From positions 2,319,504 through 2,383,503 of the forward strand of contig NZ_KI421517.1 of assembly GCF_000473365.1 (NCBI RefSeq): a stretch of 64,000 nucleotides of DNA, written 5' to 3'. A program made the position numbers and the translations under genes. This DNA comes from Adhaeribacter aquaticus DSM 16391. GTDB lineage: Bacteria; Bacteroidota; Bacteroidia; Cytophagales; Hymenobacteraceae. Below, piece after piece: positions 1 to 6,410 of this stretch. The notes beneath the pieces are model-generated. The model worked only from the letters and a program-made list of their open reading frames with translations, was not told the origin of the DNA and did no database searches. Position 1 is the first letter of the stretch; each line of letters opens with the position of its first letter.

Positions 1-416
1 GCAGCCCGCACTTTACTCTGGTCGCCCCGCACCCCGCTTATCCAAACATCGTTACTTGCCAAAATAGGCTCTAACGGTTGTATTTTATTTAGGTAGCAGC
101 AGTAGTCCGGATCGGAGGTAAACAACAAGCGCCCGGCGGCATCTTTTTGCTGATTACGCGGCACTGCTGAGTACAAATCGGTAATATTCAGGCCTAGTAA
201 ATCCTGCACCTGCTTCCGGAAACTTAAGGTTTCCGGGAAATGGTAACCAGTATTTAAAAAATAAACCGGCACATCGGGGGCTACCCGGCTTATAATATGC
301 AACAAAGGCATACTATTGGTTTGCAGCGAAGACGAAGCAAATACTTTAAGACCACGGTCTTTGTAGCCGTCTAAGTCCTTTTTTATCTCCTCTACCAAAC
401 TATCAAACTGACTCAT
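1..416 (-). CDS. cysH: Assimilatory APS/PAPS reductase, partial (3' end outside window)
   Basis: Reduces adenylyl sulfate (or PAPS) to sulfite with thioredoxin as electron donor, in the cytoplasm. The first 138 codons are visible from an ATG at 414-416. The N-terminal nucleotide-binding segment SSSLQTNS lies near residues 28-35, and NTGYHFPET near 55-63 is the conserved substrate-pocket stretch. A Cys-Cys pair at residues 106-107 (DYCCYLNKI) is typical of the iron-sulfur, APS-reducing branch of the family and absent from the E. coli-type PAPS reductases. The C-terminal CxxC and active-site Cys lie beyond the window. A good Shine-Dalgarno (AAAGGAG) precedes the ATG. It lies 146 nt downstream of the MoeB-rhodanese gene on the same strand and has its own possible promoter. 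Confidence 0.93.
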   Translation of the reverse strand, partial: MSQFDSLVEEIKKDLDGYKDRGLKVFASSSLQTNSMPLLHIISRVAPDVPVYFLNTGYHFPETLSFRKQVQDLLGLNITDLYSAVPRNQQKDAAGRLLFTSDPDYCCYLNKIQPLEPILASNDVWISGVRGDQSKVRA

Positions 417-469
417 AATTCTTCTCCTTTAAGATTCCCTTCAACGGAATTGGATGTTCAATAAATTTA

Positions 470-541
470 TTATACAAAATTATCTTGTTCCGGGAAACTG
501 GATAGGTTTAACTCCTTTTCAATTTCCTTACAAGCTGGCAT
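470..541 (-). CDS. Possible 23-residue small ORF between moeB and cysH
   Basis: An ATG at 539-541 opens 23 codons with a protein-like composition rich in Lys, Glu and Leu (MPACKEIEKELNL...) and ends at TAA 470-472, overlapping the possible cysH -7 box. The reading frame continues upstream of the ATG to include WCMPAC, so it could also be a decayed fragment. There is no terminator after it and no strong ribosome site, so it is unlikely to be a second attenuator. It is listed only because it sits inside a Cys-regulated unit. Confidence 0.15.
   Translation of the reverse strand: MPACKEIEKELNLSSFPEQDNFV
475..482 (-). promoter_or_regulatory. Possible -7 box upstream of cysH
   Basis: The minus strand reads TAATTTTG, a full match to the Bacteroidota -7 consensus TAnnTTTG. 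It would start transcription about 50 nt before the cysH ATG. No clear -33 TTG is present at the usual spacing, so this may be a weak internal promoter or a chance match in AT-rich DNA. Confidence 0.35.
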
Positions 542-562
542 ACACCAAACTGCCAATATTTC

Positions 563-1702
563 TTAGTATTTAGGCACAGTTGGATCTATCTGATCAGACC
601 AGGCCAGGATACCACCTTTCAAGTTGTACAGGTTATTATAACCATATTTCTGCTCTAAGAAAGTAACGGCATTACCACTACGGGCACCACTTCTACAATG
701 AATAACTACCTGCTTATCTTTAGAAATTTTATCTTTCTGAACATCAACCTGGCCTAATGGAATTAGCTCGCCACCTAAGTTGGCAATTTCAAATTCGTGC
801 GGTTCCCGCACATCTATTAACTGAAAATCGGCGCCACTGTCGCGTAATTCTTTTAGCTGTTCAACGGTTATTTCTTTCATATTCTTTTCATCGTTTACTT
901 TTTCATCTACTAAACAAGAAGCATCTGCCTCTACTTTTAATTCGGTTATGGCTGCAACTTTGGGATTTTTCCGGTACCGGATTATCCTGCTTTCCGCTGT
1001 TAATGCATCGTATAGCAATAATCTTCCGGCTAACGTTTCACCCACTCCGGTTACCAGCTTAATAACTTCATTGGCCTGCATGGAGCCCACAATACCCGGC
1101 AAAACACCAATTACGCCACTTTCAGCACAATTTGGTGATGCTCCCGGCACCGGATATAAGTCGCGGTAATGCGGACTGCGGTCTCCTTCTTTGGCTATGG
1201 CATTAAAAACACTTACCTGCCCTTCAAACCGGTAAATGCTGCCATAAACCAAAGGCTTTCCAGCCAGTACACAGGCATCATTCAGCAGGTAACGGGTCAG
1301 AAAATTATCGGTCGCATCTACAATTATATCATAGGGCGCTATTACTTCCAGCACGTTTTCCTTTGTTACTGCCTCATTCAACACTACAATTCGGGTAAAA
1401 GGGTTTAAAGCTAAAAGCCGCTGCTCTGCTAAAAACGCTTTAGATTTACCCACATCCGCCGTGGTAAACAAGATTTGCCGCTGTAAATTACTTTCCGATA
1501 CCGTATCGCCGTCTGCAATACCTAAGGTACCTATTCCGGCAGCCGCCAGATACAACAATACCGGACTACCTAAACCACCTGCTCCAACTACCAGTACTTT
1601 AGCTGCTTTTAGCTTTTGCTGGCCTCCCATTCCAATTTCCGGAATGACCAGGTGTCGCTGGTAACGGTTTATTTCTGCCCGGTCTAAATTCTCCAAAGCC
1701 AT
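563..1702 (-). CDS. MoeB/ThiF-family adenylyltransferase with C-terminal rhodanese domain
   Basis: The E1-like domain adenylates the C-terminal glycine of a small ubiquitin-fold sulfur carrier, and the rhodanese domain supplies persulfide sulfur. Visible motifs: nucleotide-binding GAGGLGSP at residues 40-47, the Asp-rich DGDTVSESNLQRQ stretch at 64-76, and DATDNFLTR near 130. The likely thioester Cys lies in PNCAESGV near 190, and the rhodanese loop is HCRSGARS near 337. The four zinc-binding Cys of classical MoeB are not evident. The layout matches MoeZ/MOCS3/Uba4-type proteins. It is the first gene after a poly-Cys leader ORF and terminator and is followed by cysH. This suggests a role in sulfur transfer for cysteine or thio-cofactor synthesis, which is inference. 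No carrier protein (ThiS/MoaD/CysO-like) is visible in the window. Confidence 0.9.
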   Translation of the reverse strand: MALENLDRAEINRYQRHLVIPEIGMGGQQKLKAAKVLVVGAGGLGSPVLLYLAAAGIGTLGIADGDTVSESNLQRQILFTTADVGKSKAFLAEQRLLALNPFTRIVVLNEAVTKENVLEVIAPYDIIVDATDNFLTRYLLNDACVLAGKPLVYGSIYRFEGQVSVFNAIAKEGDRSPHYRDLYPVPGASPNCAESGVIGVLPGIVGSMQANEVIKLVTGVGETLAGRLLLYDALTAESRIIRYRKNPKVAAITELKVEADASCLVDEKVNDEKNMKEITVEQLKELRDSGADFQLIDVREPHEFEIANLGGELIPLGQVDVQKDKISKDKQVVIHCRSGARSGNAVTFLEQKYGYNNLYNLKGGILAWSDQIDPTVPKY

Positions 1703-1743
1703 TTCCTACTATTCCGGTTGGTTAAGTGTTTAATTAAAAAAAT

Positions 1744-1780
1744 AAAAAGCCTTTCCGAAAAACGAAAAGGCTTTTTATTT
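1744..1780 (-). terminator. Intrinsic terminator of the leader (attenuator) before moeB
   Basis: On the minus strand a 14-nt arm AAAAAGCCTTTTCG (1776-1763) pairs with CGGAAAGGCTTTTT (1757-1744) with one G.U wobble across a 5-nt loop. The 3' arm ends in U-rich sequence (CTTTTTATTTTTTT). The hairpin lies 33 nt after the stop of the poly-Cys ORF and 42 nt before the moeB ATG, so it interrupts transcription within the leader rather than ending an operon. Confidence 0.85.
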
Positions 1781-1809
1781 TTTTATATCAATGCAAAATG
1801 ATACCAAAA

Positions 1810-1905
1810 TTAGCTAATAGCAAACCTTTCCGCGCTAAACGCACCCATACAACAGCAACAAGTTGCTTTATAGAAGGTCCGAGCGTTTTTAGGTTGTTCT
1901 TGCAT
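1810..1905 (-). CDS. Poly-cysteine leader peptide (31 aa), candidate cysteine attenuator
   Basis: ATG at 1903-1905 opens 31 codons ending TAA at 1810-1812. Residues 16-19 are four consecutive Cys codons (TGT TGC TGT TGT). The ORF starts about 19 nt after a predicted start site and is preceded by purine-rich AGAAAG. Within codons 25-28 the sequence CGGAAAGGTTT (1832-1822) nearly repeats the 3' arm of the downstream terminator (CGGAAAGGCTT). It can pair with the terminator 5' arm over 11 bp including two G.U pairs. It begins 16 nt after the last Cys codon, so a ribosome stalled there would leave it free. Segment ACCTTC at codons 10-11 could pair with GAAAGGT as the opposing hairpin. The likely role is in cis: stalling under low Cys-tRNA permits moeB-cysH transcription. 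The peptide itself probably has no function. Confidence 0.75.
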   Translation of the reverse strand: MQEQPKNARTFYKATCCCCMGAFSAERFAIS

Positions 1906-1928
1906 ATTAATTTTCTTTCTGAACGGCA

Positions 1929-1936
1929 CAAATTTA
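1929..1936 (-). promoter_or_regulatory. -7 promoter box for the cysteine leader/moeB/cysH unit
   Basis: The minus strand reads TAAATTTG, a full match to the Bacteroidota TAnnTTTG -7 box. A TTG lies upstream with a 24-nt spacer, slightly longer than usual. The predicted start near 1924 leaves a leader of about 20 nt before the poly-Cys ORF, as expected for an attenuator. Confidence 0.55.
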
Positions 1937-1990
1937 TATACTATTCATAAGATATAAAAACAATAACGGCAATTATTTAAAAGCGTTGCC

Positions 1991-2758
1991 TTAACGGACT
2001 TTACATAAAAATCCGCCGTTTAGTAAAGAAGGTTTATTATACCGGAATGGTTCCCCATTTGGCATCGTCATCACGCCGCCACTATTGGCTACAATGGCCT
2101 GACCAGAAGCTGTATCCCACTCCATAGTAGGCCCTTGCCGATAATAAATATGTGCCTTTCCTTCGGCTATTAAACAAAATTTAAGTGAACTGCCGGCTGT
2201 AATACTGGAAACAATCGGGTATTGCGCCAAAACAATCTCTTCTTCCGGTGAGGCATGTGAACGACTCCCCACAGACACCCATTCAGTAGCTTCGGCATTT
2301 ACCTGAAGCTGTATGGTAGTACCATCCGGGGTGCGTTTAAAACTTCCTATGTTTTCGCCGCCCCAATACAGGGTTTGTTGCACCGGCACATAAATTACGC
2401 CTAATACCGGACGTTCATTATGAATAAGTGCAATGTTTACGGTGAACTCACCATTGCGCTTTATAAACTCCTTTGTTCCGTCCAAGGGGTCTACACACCA
2501 AAAATATTCCCAATTTTTCCGCTCTTCGTAAGCAATACTTGCTCCTTCTTCCGATAAAATGGGTATTTCGGGGGTTAACTTTTGTAACCCTATTTCAATT
2601 ACTTTATGGGAAGCTTCATCTGCTAAGGTTAACGGCGATTCGTCGGTTTTCAATTTCACCTGTAAAGCCTCTTCCGGATGATTATATACCGTTAAAATAG
2701 CCTCACCAGCCTCTAATGCAATTTTCAACAGTTGCTCAATATTTATTTGGGACAGCAT
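1991..2758 (-). CDS. cysQ: 3'(2'),5'-bisphosphate nucleotidase
   Basis: Hydrolyses 3'-phosphoadenosine 5'-phosphate (PAP), the by-product of PAPS use, to AMP and phosphate in a Mg-dependent reaction. The inositol-monophosphatase-fold motifs are present: LSEEGA, the metal-binding DPLDGTKEF near residue 95, and the second metal motif WDTASGQAI near 213. The length of 255 aa is usual for CysQ. The reading frame extends upstream to 2815, but the ATG at 2756-2758 is preferred. It matches the family N-terminus (MLSQINIEQLL), and a full TAnnTTTG box lies at 2777-2784, between the two candidate starts. It sits beside cysC/D/N, consistent with PAP recycling. Confidence 0.92.
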   Translation of the reverse strand: MLSQINIEQLLKIALEAGEAILTVYNHPEEALQVKLKTDESPLTLADEASHKVIEIGLQKLTPEIPILSEEGASIAYEERKNWEYFWCVDPLDGTKEFIKRNGEFTVNIALIHNERPVLGVIYVPVQQTLYWGGENIGSFKRTPDGTTIQLQVNAEATEWVSVGSRSHASPEEEIVLAQYPIVSSITAGSSLKFCLIAEGKAHIYYRQGPTMEWDTASGQAIVANSGGVMTMPNGEPFRYNKPSLLNGGFLCKVR

Positions 2759-2776
2759 AAAAATCTGATTAAGCGG

Positions 2777-2784
2777 CAAAGTTA
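2777..2784 (-). promoter_or_regulatory. -7 box upstream of cysQ
   Basis: The minus strand reads TAACTTTG, a full TAnnTTTG match. A start about 5 nt downstream leaves a 5' leader of roughly 14 nt to the ATG at 2758. It helps to reject the longer upstream reading frame of cysQ. No convincing -33 element is visible. Confidence 0.45.
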
Positions 2785-2854
2785 GAAAGGATGCGCAAAG
2801 TCTGGCACATTTCAAATATTTTTAACCAAAGCCAACCGGTAACGCAAAAGCCTT

Positions 2855-3211
2855 TTATTTTTCAGGTCCTTCTTCCGGGTAATGCTCCGGATCCAAGCGG
2901 TGTAATTTATCTAAGGCCTGAGAAAATTTTGCCCGCACAGCCTCATCATTGGTGGCTACCTTCTGGTCTAAAGGCAAATTACTTAAACCCATTTCTTTTT
3001 CTATGGCCTGCAAATGAAATACATAAATATCCACACTACTAACCGCATCTACTGTAAAATCTTGATTTTCTTTGGTCATAGTGGCTACAAACCTGTTCTT
3101 CATCTCTTCGGCCAGCCTTATCTCCTGGTAAATAAACGCCCCCGGGTCCGGATTACCCCTTTCTATTTCTTCCTTCAGCCGTTCTTTAAATTACTTAATA
3201 TTTAAGTCCAT
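2855..3211 (-). pseudogene. Small gene of unknown function interrupted by an early in-frame stop
   Basis: An ATG at 3209-3211 follows a strong Shine-Dalgarno (GGAGGA, 4 nt spacing) and encodes MDLNIK. A TAA follows at codon 7 (3191-3193). The same frame then stays open to 2855 with a convincing protein sequence: FKERLKEEIERGNPDPG, then a helical region containing EAVRAKFSQALDKLHRLDPEHYPEE. Without the stop the product would be about 118 aa. An internal ATG at 3101-3103 gives an 82-residue C-terminal product, which could be made by reinitiation. A GAA-to-TAA change at codon 7 is the simplest explanation. Readthrough or an assembly error cannot be excluded. I do not recognise the family. It lies between cysQ and the divergent cysC. 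Confidence 0.6.
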
Positions 3212-3392
3212 GGTTCCTCCTTTTACTTGCCGCAGTTCCTAAACAAGTCATTACAATATATCCATTTCATAAACTCAGAATATTCCTGCTTAGTTTTATG
3301 GAATAACAATTAATCAGGAGCAGCTTTTGAAGCTTTTTTCATTAATAATCAAACTTATTTAAATAATTTTTAAATAATTAAACATAACCTCG

Positions 3393-3400
3393 TAATTTTG
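3393..3400 (+). promoter_or_regulatory. -7 box upstream of cysC
   Basis: TAATTTTG is a full TAnnTTTG match, 24 nt before the ATG at 3425. An alternative TTG start at 3398 would lie inside this box, which favours the ATG start. No clear -33 TTG is seen. Confidence 0.45.
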
Positions 3401-3424
3401 GCCTCCAAAACTTTAACCCTACAA

Positions 3425-4027
3425 ATGGCTGAAAATATTTATCCCATTTTTGACCAAACCCTGACCCGCCAGGATAAGGAAACCTTACTTAAACAACGGG
3501 CAATAGTGGTTTGGATGGCCGGATTATCTGGTTCGGGGAAAAGTACCTTGGCCAAAGGCCTGGAGCGGGAACTACACGCCCAAGGTTTTTTAACAGAACT
3601 GCTGGATGGCGACAACCTGCGCAGTGGCATTAATAATAACTTAGGATTTTCTGAAGCGGATCGGTTAGAAAACATTCGCCGGTCGGCGGAAACAGCAAAA
3701 TTATTTTTACAGGCTGGTATGGTAACTATTTGCTCCTTAATCAGTCCAACCGAAGAGGTGCGCCAAATTGCCCGTAATATTATTGGAGAAGCAGACTTTT
3801 TTGAGGTGTATGTAAATGCCCCTTTTGAAGTATGCGCCCAGCGCGATGTAAAAGGCTTGTACAAAAAAGCTTTGAATGGCGAAATCAAAAACTTTACCGG
3901 GTTAGATGCTCCTTTTGAGGCACCTGCTAATCCGGATTTAGAAATTCGTACCGACCAGGAAGATTATTCTACCAGTTTACATAAACTTATCAATACATTG
4001 CTGCCTCGCATCAAACCTAACAATTGA
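3425..4027 (+). CDS. cysC: Adenylylsulfate kinase
   Basis: Phosphorylates adenylyl sulfate (APS) to PAPS with ATP. The P-loop GLSGSGKST lies near residues 35-43, followed by the APS-binding segment LDGDNLRSGINNNLGFSEADRLENIRR. ICSLISPTEEVR and the mobile lid KGLYKKALNGEIKNFTGLDAPFE are also present. Length of 200 aa matches the family. The ATG at 3425 is chosen over an in-frame TTG at 3398 because of family N-terminus and the promoter box. It is the first gene of cysC-cysD-cysN; the spacings of 99 and 106 nt suggest one transcript. Confidence 0.95.
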   Translation: MAENIYPIFDQTLTRQDKETLLKQRAIVVWMAGLSGSGKSTLAKGLERELHAQGFLTELLDGDNLRSGINNNLGFSEADRLENIRRSAETAKLFLQAGMVTICSLISPTEEVRQIARNIIGEADFFEVYVNAPFEVCAQRDVKGLYKKALNGEIKNFTGLDAPFEAPANPDLEIRTDQEDYSTSLHKLINTLLPRIKPNN

Positions 4028-4126
4028 GGTGGCAGTTGCATTAATTTGAATATTTTAAAATAGTAAATCGTTAATCAGAAATAATAAGTCCTGGAATATC
4101 GACCAAGGCTATAGACTAAATAAAAA

Positions 4127-5035
4127 ATGTCTCATTCTTATAAATTAAGTTATCTGAAGCAACTAGAGGCCGAATCCATTTTCGTAATTCGGGAAGCCGT
4201 TGCTCAGTTTGAAAAACCGGTTTTATTATTCTCCGGAGGAAAAGATTCTATTGTAATGGCGCATTTAGCCCGTAAGGCTTTCTGGCCAGCTAAATTGCCA
4301 TTCCCTATGCTTCACGTGGACACCGGGCACAACTTCCCGGAGACCCTGGAGTTCCGGGATTACCTGGTAAATAAAATTGGCGCCCGCTTAATTGTGCGTA
4401 CCGTTCAAGACTCCATCGATCAGGGTTTAGCTGAAGAAGAAAAAGGGCCTAACCCAAGCCGCAATGGTTTACAAACCGTTACATTGCTAAGCGCGGTGGA
4501 AGAATTTAAATTTGATGTGGCCTTTGGAGGGGCACGTCGCGACGAAGAAAAAGCCCGTGCCAAAGAGCGTTTCTTCTCTCACCGCGATGAATTTAGTCAG
4601 TGGGATCCGAAAAATCAGCGACCAGAATTATGGCATTTATACAATGGCCGTAAAAATCCGGGCGAACATTTCCGGGTATTCCCGCTAAGTAACTGGACAG
4701 AGTTAGACATCTGGCAATACATTGCCGAAGAAAATTTAGAATTACCTTCTATTTATTTCTCGCACCAACGCGAAATAGTAAACCGTCAGGGCGTACTTTT
4801 GGCCAAATCAGAATACATTACTTTATTAAAGGGCGAGGAATACGAAGAAAGAACCGTGCGCTTTAGAACCGTTGGTGATATGAGCTGTACGGGTGCGGTA
4901 GAATCACCGGCCAGTAACCTGGAAGATATTATTGCGGAAGTAGCTGCTGCCCGGGTAACGGAGCGTGCTGCCCGTGCCGACGACCAGCGTTCTGAGGCGG
5001 CCATGGAAGACCGGAAAAAACAAGGTTATTTCTAA
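4127..5035 (+). CDS. cysD: Sulfate adenylyltransferase subunit 2
   Basis: Catalytic subunit of ATP sulfurylase: forms APS from sulfate and ATP, driven by GTP hydrolysis in CysN. The PP-loop signature SGGKDSIVMAHLARKAF is near residues 36-52. HVDTGHNFPETLEFRD, GGARRDEEKARAKER and the C-terminal GDMSCTGAVESPA segment are the usual CysD blocks. Length of 302 aa is standard. The ribosome site is weak, as is common in this phylum. It is followed by cysN on the same strand. Confidence 0.96.
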   Translation: MSHSYKLSYLKQLEAESIFVIREAVAQFEKPVLLFSGGKDSIVMAHLARKAFWPAKLPFPMLHVDTGHNFPETLEFRDYLVNKIGARLIVRTVQDSIDQGLAEEEKGPNPSRNGLQTVTLLSAVEEFKFDVAFGGARRDEEKARAKERFFSHRDEFSQWDPKNQRPELWHLYNGRKNPGEHFRVFPLSNWTELDIWQYIAEENLELPSIYFSHQREIVNRQGVLLAKSEYITLLKGEEYEERTVRFRTVGDMSCTGAVESPASNLEDIIAEVAAARVTERAARADDQRSEAAMEDRKKQGYF

Positions 5036-5141
5036 GCCCCTACCTGTTTGATGGTTCATTGCTTTTAGCGCTGACCCAATTATTAAAAGTATTTGTTAAA
5101 CAAAATTGAAGCTAAAGGCAAAACGCTGCTAGCTAACTATA

Positions 5142-6410
5142 ATGGACATAAAAGAACAAAAGAAAGAAGCTGACTTGCTCCGTTTTATTACCTGCGGAAG
5201 CGTAGACGATGGCAAAAGTACCTTAATTGGCCGCCTGCTTTACGATACCAAAACCATTTTTGAAGATCAGCTGCAGAATATAGAAAAAACGAGCCAGATG
5301 CGCGGCGAAGAGCACGTAAACCTGGCTTTGTTAACCGATGGCTTACGCGCCGAGCGGGAACAAGGTATCACCATTGATGTGGCTTATCGGTATTTTGCTA
5401 CGCCAAACCGGAAATTTATTATGGCCGATACCCCGGGTCATATTCAATATACCCGGAACATGGTTACCGGAGCCTCTACCGCTAACCTGGCCATTGTTTT
5501 GATAGATGCCCGTAAAGGAGTTATTGAACAAACCTGCCGCCATACGTTTATTGCCTCTTTGCTTAAAATAGACCACGTTATTTTGTGTATAAACAAAATG
5601 GACCTGGTTGATTACAGTGAGGAAGTATACAATAAAATTAAAGCTGATTACGAAGATTTTATTTCCCGTTTAGATATTCCGGATGTTCGCTATATTCCGG
5701 TAAGTGCTTTACAAGGCGATAATATCGTTAATAAATCAGAGAAGATGGCTTGGTACCAGGGCCCTACCCTGCTGTATACTTTGGAATCTATCCATATTGG
5801 CAGCGACCTGAACCTGATAGATGCCCGCTTCCCGGTACAATATGTATCGCGGCCACAAACTACTGAATATCACGATTTCCGGGGTTATGCCGGCCGGGTA
5901 GAAGGTGGAGTATTTAAACCAGGTGATGAAATCACTGTTTTGCCTTCCGGATTCAACAGCAAAATTGCTTCCATCGAAACCTTTGATGGCGCGGTAGAAG
6001 AAGCTTTCTCGCCCATGTCAGTTACCATGACGCTGGAAGATGAGATAGACATCAGCCGTGGCGATATGATTGTAAAGCCTAACAATCAACCACAGGTAAG
6101 CCAGGATTTAGAAGTAATGATTTGCTGGATGAATGAAAAACCGTTGGTTAAAGGCAAAAAATACATCGTTCGCCACACTACCCGCGAAGCGAAATGCCTG
6201 GTAAAAGAAATCCGCTATAAAATGAATATCAATACCCTGCATAAAATCGAAGACGACCTTACTATTGGCCTGAACGATATTGCCCGTATTGCTATTCGCA
6301 CCACTGTACCGTTGTTCTTTGATGAATACCGGAAAAATACCGCAACTGGTAGTTTAATTCTGGTAGATGAGTTTACCAACGAAACATTAGCGGCTGGAAT
6401 CATTTTATAA
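5142..6410 (+). CDS. cysN: Sulfate adenylyltransferase subunit 1 (GTPase)
   Basis: EF-Tu-like GTPase partner of CysD. G1 GSVDDGKSTLIG is near residues 19-30, the switch region near 70 contains EREQGITIDVAYRYF, G3 is DTPGH near 95, and G4 is NKMD near 150. Beta-barrel domains 2 and 3 follow. The 422 aa length fits the stand-alone CysN form with no CysC kinase fused at the C-terminus, agreeing with the separate cysC gene upstream. ATG at 5142. Confidence 0.96.
   Translation: MDIKEQKKEADLLRFITCGSVDDGKSTLIGRLLYDTKTIFEDQLQNIEKTSQMRGEEHVNLALLTDGLRAEREQGITIDVAYRYFATPNRKFIMADTPGHIQYTRNMVTGASTANLAIVLIDARKGVIEQTCRHTFIASLLKIDHVILCINKMDLVDYSEEVYNKIKADYEDFISRLDIPDVRYIPVSALQGDNIVNKSEKMAWYQGPTLLYTLESIHIGSDLNLIDARFPVQYVSRPQTTEYHDFRGYAGRVEGGVFKPGDEITVLPSGFNSKIASIETFDGAVEEAFSPMSVTMTLEDEIDISRGDMIVKPNNQPQVSQDLEVMICWMNEKPLVKGKKYIVRHTTREAKCLVKEIRYKMNINTLHKIEDDLTIGLNDIARIAIRTTVPLFFDEYRKNTATGSLILVDEFTNETLAAGIIL

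Follow-up and report, generated by a model that had tools for sequence, protein, structure and literature searches.

What does a short open reading frame (ORF) with four consecutive Cys codons do in front of the sulfur-assimilation genes of Adhaeribacter aquaticus DSM 16391? The ORF lies in a window of 64,000 nucleotides, the whole stretch of DNA that was analysed (NCBI RefSeq assembly GCF_000473365.1, contig NZ_KI421517.1, positions 2,319,504 to 2,383,503 of the forward strand). The first-pass annotation of this DNA had placed a promoter box, the ORF, its Cys codons and an intrinsic terminator in that order on the minus strand before moeB-cysH, and had proposed a candidate cysteine attenuator. 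Its coordinates for the four elements were exact to the base (Table 1). The order of terminator and genes was also right; the first gene, named simply moeB, had to be amended to a MoeB-rhodanese fusion with ThiF and Rhodanese domains. The leader sits between cysQ and this fusion gene.

Table 1. Features of the focal leader and of the genes around it, in positions of the window.
Feature	Position	Strand	Basis or remark
Presumed Bacteroidota-type -7 promoter box, TAAATTTG	1929..1936	minus	Read in sequence; 23 nt upstream of the leader ATG
Leader ORF, 31 codons, MQEQPKNARTFYKATCCCCMGAFSAERFAIS	1810..1905	minus	ATG at 1905; homologous leaders in relatives
Regulatory codons Cys-Cys-Cys-Cys-Met	1846..1860	minus	Sequence; Cys and Met enriched in such leaders
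Antiterminator 5' strand (segment 2, CGGAAAGG)	1816..1833	minus	In frame, final third of the ORF; duplex energies and folds
Shared segment 3 (5' arm and loop side of the terminator), which can pair with segment 2 instead	1761..1780	minus	Folding, duplex energies
Intrinsic terminator hairpin (segments 3:4)	1744..1776	minus	Stem -21.1 kcal/mol; U-tract to ~1735
MoeB-rhodanese fusion (sulfur-carrier adenylyltransferase/sulfurtransferase), regulated gene 1	563..1702	minus	ThiF and Rhodanese domains
cysH, phosphoadenylyl-sulfate reductase, regulated gene 2	1..416	minus	Cut by the window edge
cysQ (3'(2'),5'-bisphosphate nucleotidase)	1991..2815	minus	Upstream of the leader, same direction; outside the switch
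cysC, cysD, cysN, sulfate activation	3398..6410	plus	Divergent; outside the switch

The promoter box fits TAnnTTTG, which we take to be the -7 promoter motif of Bacteroidota. Read by eye, the -33 element is weak, just a run of T. With 23 nt between box and ATG, the focal ORF is not leaderless. Its Cys codons are TGT TGC TGT TGT (1860-1849), and a Met codon comes next. Sixteen nucleotides after the last Cys codon begins CGGAAAGGTTT (1832-1822), which lies in frame in the ORF and is identical to the terminator 3' arm, CGGAAAGGCTT, at 10 of 11 bases. This near-copy and its spacing had been pointed out in the first pass and were confirmed in the sequence. We folded the leader and compared energies as had been suggested there. 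The whole leader folded at -58 kcal/mol (z -6.1 versus its shuffles), and the terminator stem of -21.1 kcal/mol stood against an antiterminator duplex of -17.1 kcal/mol (p = 0.005, 200 shuffles of the intervening sequence). In an Rfam search of window positions 1-6000, every match, the focal leader included, stayed below its gathering score. Several of these sub-threshold matches fell at the focal terminator (PyrR, Thr leader, miRNAs), and we took them as chance.

Runs of four Cys codons are not in themselves rare in this genome. We found 48 TGY-TGY-TGY-TGY sites, and the loci surrounding them (30 loci and 17 stretches) held 16 short ORFs with CCC. A terminator lay within 115 nt in three of the 16. 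The focal leader was one of them, and the second stood before a Cys/Met-PLP-like gene. The third, with its terminator 100 nt away and off the TGY x4 site itself, was set aside as a probable chance case. At the focal locus, the Cys run and the terminator together are more than chance.

A third Cys-leader locus of the genus was noted, where MILPLKDLTCCCCMQVCNC and a terminator were found (G000:C1 ~2431750-2431890, minus strand, L059). It is flanked by a TonB-receptor-like gene, identified by eye, and by a gene that weakly resembles the Cys/Met-PLP family (26 bits, cut-off 27). Its antiterminator is weak (-7.5). At the corresponding place in G003-G006 (L249-L255) we saw ORFs such as MNKMKTLSKIYGLCCMRGCCS, without a plain U-tract terminator.

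The first pass had also proposed looking in relatives, and there Cys-run ORFs with terminator and antiterminator proved to be conserved. Cys leaders before the cys operon were present in seven of the eight genomes of the genus. The exception, G007 (78% complete), yielded none; its best MoeB match (49% identity, L025), which may be a paralogue, had no Cys-run ORF. The leader is single in G000. It is also single in G001 and G002, where a rhodanese gene comes next and a cysH-like one after that. G003-G006 carry two complete leaders in series. The genes after them encode a cysteine synthase (PALP, cysM/cysK type), a JAB-domain protease, MoeB-rhodanese, a cysH-like and an epimerase-like protein, the first three families assigned by domain search and the last two by resemblance only. 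The operon at L081-L084 (cysteine synthase, JAB protease, MoeB-rhodanese, cysH-like) resembles the actinobacterial protein-thiocarboxylate route to cysteine. Antiterminator-encoded residues come back from leader to leader in the genus (AERF, SERF, PERF, TERL), and the start of the peptide varies. When 30 moeB loci were scanned for short Cys-run ORFs, no plausible leader except the focal one was found; the scan missed those of G003-G006 because they lie ~2 kb upstream of moeB, outside the scanned loci. The focal leader peptide was also used to search 59 genomes. This search brought up true relatives within the genus, the G003-G006 leaders among them, and the matches inspected beyond the genus look like chance. 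Among the genomes compared, a leader at the moeB/cys operon was thus seen only in the source genus.

The same device was found at a second operon. We built a covariance model (R1) from the cys-operon leaders and searched 200 genomes of the family. R1 was dominated by the terminator, with matches at E<=1 in 200/200 genomes, and only the top matches were followed. In addition to sites already known, they gave tandem Cys leaders before a 710-aa NirA-like sulfite reductase with two NIR_SIR domains: of 13 stretches, ~7 had sulfite-reductase leaders and the rest none. With the protein as query, such leaders were found in all eight genomes of the genus, including the source genome (MELVYFSPAIFTYTQTCCMCCGKLS). 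G040, of another family, has two Cys leaders in series before its sulfite reductase.

We extended the comparison with two sets. The named-genome scan took the best 80 of 589 relatives, giving 80 loci. Among these best 80, a terminator with an ORF could be detected within 700 nt at 38 loci; in 28 of the 38, 2 or more Cys fell within 5 codons. The leaders from these best 80 of 589 belong to Pedobacter, Mucilaginibacter, Chitinophaga, a Fulvivirgaceae genome, a Cyclobacteriaceae genome and others; the Sphingobacterium loci among the same 80 showed no such leader. In nine named loci inspected by eye, siroheme-type genes follow the sulfite reductase, accompanied in L161 and L191 by cysH-like genes. 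At L215 (515-650), a Cys/Met leader (MKANTSNSIFFSHQIAMCCCMRRCC) and a terminator precede an aldo/keto-reductase-like gene (by eye), which lies directly before the sulfite reductase. The class-wide set was drawn separately from 247 genomes, of which 60 had the enzyme and 57 upstream regions were used; the source genome (G046, examined earlier) and one partial match were excluded. One locus is shared between the sets (G272 is L154, no leader) and G449 lies near L200; beyond these, the class-wide set does not overlap with the other. L143 and L208 are one and the same locus, again without a leader. A usable terminator was found in 37 of the 57 class-wide regions, and 3 or more Cys within 5 codons were seen in 14 of the 24 families. 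No terminator was detected in families f19, f24, f26, f55, f73 and f83, and f32 had at most weak Cys ORFs. The 20/57 class-wide loci without a usable terminator stand outside the enrichment counts below, as do the 52/99 earlier-set loci (which include the best 80 of 589) without a terminator with ORF.

To quantify the Cys content, we counted residues in windows of 5 codons and compared them with dinucleotide shuffles. The earlier set comprised 47 terminator-bearing leaders (from the best 80 of 589 plus 9 relatives). At least 2 Cys were present in 37 (6.6 in shuffles), at least 3 in 20 (0.46) and at least 4 in 11 (0.01). Residues other than Cys were much nearer the shuffles in these 47 (best 80 of 589 plus 9), Met being left out of that test. 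The 37 class-wide leaders gave the same picture, with at least 2 Cys in 31 (expected 6.4), at least 3 in 23 (0.54) and at least 4 in 11 (0.04). As a control, 108 other terminators from the window and the named loci had at least 2 Cys in 11 cases and at least 3 in two; one of these two stands before an aldo/keto-reductase-like gene (by eye) that ends just ahead of sulfite reductase in the operon, and is therefore a real leader.

Met was the second enriched residue. Class-wide, at least 2 Met in 5 codons (initiator excluded) occurred in 22/37 leaders (null 2.8), and mixed windows, 8 codons holding 2 Cys and 2 Met, in 22/37 loci (0.15 expected). The control terminators had a mixed window in 1/108, the real leader itself. 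Besides Cys, only Met was strongly enriched in the class-wide leaders; Asn ranked next, with 7 against 1.9 expected at the level of 3 or more. The earlier set showed an excess of Met at up to 2 codons from clustered Cys (odds ratio 5.5, 27/33 peptides), and without the hand-found peptides the values were 5.3 and 20/26; nine such peptides were listed, seven of them used in one of the three tables. Trp was also enriched near Cys in the earlier set (10 versus 0 codons; e.g. ACWFWCC, RCACWYWCC), and Ala less so. Both sulfur amino acids may be sensed, the methionine response being inferred from these codons.

Some qualifications attach to the counts. Because the sequences are related, locus counts overstate independent events. 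The L155 (Chitinophaga rupis) uORF and one of the two G421 uORFs look spurious and stayed in the counts; L155 was dropped from the Met test. The false L133 uORF was kept in the duplex test and dropped from the cognate-exchange and Met tests. Class-wide leader G355, which has unread letters, was kept.

For the antiterminator, we computed the energy of the duplex that the sequence following the Cys codons, starting at 6 nt from the last one, can form with the terminator 5' arm plus loop. The duplex was significant against shuffles (p<0.05) in 32/56 units of the earlier set and in 29/41 class-wide units. Most single antiterminators of Pedobacter and Mucilaginibacter were not significant alone. 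In the genus and G040 leaders, one spurious unit excepted, the duplex begins 6-15 nt after the last Cys codon. When cognate partners were compared with exchanged ones (39 types, 55 units), the mean residual was -3.64 versus -0.19 (sd 0.42), a difference of 8 sd, and 0/5000 permutations did as well. The focal segment 2 had a rank fraction of 0.036 with its own terminator. In several leaders the pairing extends to the loop side of the terminator, and loop-side bases differ in step with segment 2 (TTCGG:CCGAA, TACGG:CCGTA, GCAG:CTGC, TGAGG:CCTCA). The RNAalifold consensus of seven first cys-operon leaders was the antiterminator helix, with 2/14 pairs changed on both sides; the four second cys-operon leaders had no antiterminator pair changed on both sides. 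The alternative pairing put forward in the first pass therefore holds in relatives, in the cognate preference, in the in-step differences and in those two helix pairs.

The two structures were mutually exclusive in constrained folds of 39 units, which had been preselected at p<=0.12. With the ribosome stalled on the last Cys codon and the 3' arm still missing, the antiterminator formed in 39/39. With the ribosome at the stop codon, the terminator formed in 38/39. The full-length fold kept the antiterminator in only 13/39 units, and the focal leader is not one of them. Since full-length folds favour the terminator, in the focal leader as well, the switch must be kinetic, decided during transcription. 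A 1:2 protector hairpin reached p<=0.05 in 7/39 units, including the first leader before sulfite reductase in three of the four genomes G003-G006; its focal p is 0.45. In the first leader of L131-L133, early codons imitate the 5' arm of the terminator and are able to pair with the antiterminator (p 0.005-0.010). Either a true 1:2 hairpin or a decoy is possible there.

We conclude, with high though not full confidence, that the focal element is a ribosome-mediated transcription attenuator of the sulfur-assimilation operon, of a design shared across Bacteroidota. Its working is inferred from the arrangement and the folds. As RNA polymerase transcribes the leader, a ribosome would already be translating the short ORF. 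When charged tRNA-Cys is ample, the ribosome would cross the Cys run and cover segment 2 up to the stop codon; the terminator would then fold and moeB-cysH would be off. When tRNA-Cys is poorly charged, the ribosome is predicted to stall at the Cys codons and leave segment 2, 16 nt downstream, free. Segment 2 could then capture the 5' arm of the terminator while the 3' arm has yet to be transcribed, and transcription would continue. The same design is predicted to act at Bacteroidota sulfite reductase operons, frequently as two units in series and often with Met mixed into the Cys runs. The proposal of a cysteine attenuator is thus supported by the conserved leaders, the alternative pairing and the Cys enrichment; the stalling, the readthrough and the response to cysteine itself remain inferences. 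The comparison supports a wider reach than the first-pass annotation had allowed, with the same device across the phylum before sulfite reductase, often doubled and with Met beside Cys.

Could the peptide rather than its codons be the sensor? A nascent peptide rich in Cys and Met might bind a soft metal (copper, zinc) or sense thiol stress and stall the ribosome, with the same antitermination; induction of the sulfur genes would in that case serve a demand for thiols or Fe-S. Cys, Met and some Trp are clustered in these leaders, and residues of this kind are soft-metal ligands. However, the genes under control are part of the cysteine-making pathway, the run varies from 2 to 10 Cys within differing flanking peptides, and what stays constant is where the Cys codons lie with respect to the antiterminator, as codon sensing requires. 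We regard a metal or thiol sensor as unlikely and keep to the codon-reading attenuator.

The promoters bear on how doubled attenuators are arranged. In the doubled cys-operon leaders, TAnnTTTG stands before the first unit in 4/4 and is absent before the second in 4/4. With the box only before the first unit and little room between the units, both leaders are probably on one transcript. The sulfite-reductase leaders of the genus had no exact box before either unit, except the first of G007; several show TAnnTTTA instead, read by eye. Class-wide, 10 of the 31 genomes with units had two or more, one of these (G421) being doubtful. We also checked promoters in 28 named-locus units, which derive from the best 80 of 589 relatives. 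In nine of them (L160, L167, L170, L172, L173, L179, L181, L188 and L209) the ATG lies exactly 4 nt after TATATTTG. Given where transcription starts relative to the box, this spacing predicts a leaderless or nearly leaderless mRNA.

A different leader was found in seven loci (L138-L141, L151-L153), which belong to four genomes of the family and, among the named genomes, to two of Pontibacter and one of Botryobacter. All seven have a SAM riboswitch (60.6-71.9 bits) first and then an ORF in which 4-10 Cys codons stand in a row, ahead of the sulfite reductase gene. No terminator was detected in the ~230-440 nt between the poly-Cys ORF and the sulfite reductase gene. SAM and cysteine could be read there in one leader, perhaps through Rho. 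These leaders, with their long stretch before the gene and no detected terminator, are also what speaks for a further explanation, in which translation of the ORF acts by way of Rho, or of mRNA structure around the first gene, and not through an intrinsic terminator, as proposed for mycobacteria. Against it, the focal leader and most of the counted leaders have a terminator with a U-tract, many with a matched antiterminator, and for them we consider this explanation very unlikely. That the ORF is a small functional Cys-rich protein whose hairpin only ends its transcript or sets basal readthrough is hardly credible, for although the relatives we examined retain an ORF, in some of them longer than codon sensing needs, the peptides differ except in Cys/Met and the residues encoded by segment 2 (AERF, TERL), and the complementarity of segment 2 to its cognate terminator would be left unexplained.

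With attenuation by Cys codons as the preferred reading, a broader proposal can be made, which we judge evenly balanced between right and wrong. The leaders would form a phylum-wide sensor, in which Cys/Met codons (MCMCMCMCCCMR, AMMCCCCCMMN) read both tRNA-Cys and tRNA-Met, the series arrangement steepens the response and Pontibacter adds a SAM riboswitch. If this is true, doubled attenuators would multiply two readthrough probabilities and give a steep, tightly repressed switch, and the Pontibacter relatives would read SAM and cysteine on one transcript.

Classical amino-acid attenuators are of the trp, his, leu and thr type. The leaders described here share with them a short ORF, codons for the pathway product, an intrinsic terminator and a mutually exclusive antiterminator with its 5' strand at the end of the ORF. 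They differ in that the codons are Cys (with Met), the hosts are Bacteroidota with their own promoter type, the protector pairing of segment 1 is weakly supported and two complete attenuators often stand in series. Canestrari et al. reportedly described poly-Cys leaderless sORFs in mycobacteria in 2020. Those sORFs and the present leaders have in common a poly-Cys uORF before cys genes, and a leaderless start is predicted in 9/28 of our named Bacteroidota units. The focal ORF is not leaderless. In actinobacteria, poly-Cys leaders before cys genes were predicted without conserved terminator hairpins, as far as the accessible part of that article goes (PMC1262725), whereas here there is a strong terminator with a matched antiterminator. 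Attenuation in mycobacteria is treated in an article available in part (PMC13236596). The uORFC-8-2 motif, according to the accessible portion of its description, is likewise a predicted Cys-codon attenuator; it has two tandem Cys codons before cysS, ends in a terminal U-run and is given only for Rhodobacterales (PMC8632094). In contrast to what that portion describes, the genes downstream of the focal leader are moeB-rhodanese and cysH, not cysS, and Bacteroidota leaders have 2-10 Cys with Met mixed in. Within the same phylum, strong clues for leader-peptide attenuation before amino-acid biosynthesis operons come from Flavobacterium psychrophilum (PMC9723704); the available part of that article names no cysteine or sulfur operon, and overlap is not excluded. 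sORFs in B. thetaiotaomicron are covered by another article, likewise available in part (PMC7366714). Our full-text literature search found no cysteine attenuator described in Bacteroidota, most subscription journals being outside its coverage. The class of mechanism is known; what appears to be new, within the literature covered, is its occurrence in this phylum, the use of Cys/Met codons, the tandem arrangement and the joint use with a SAM riboswitch.

Bacteroidota are major bacteria of soil, water and gut, and the control of their sulfur assimilation is little known. These leaders carry cysteine attenuation into a new phylum, in a form complete with terminator and antiterminator. Such a switch implies working transcription-translation coupling in Bacteroidota, which are mostly without Shine-Dalgarno sites.
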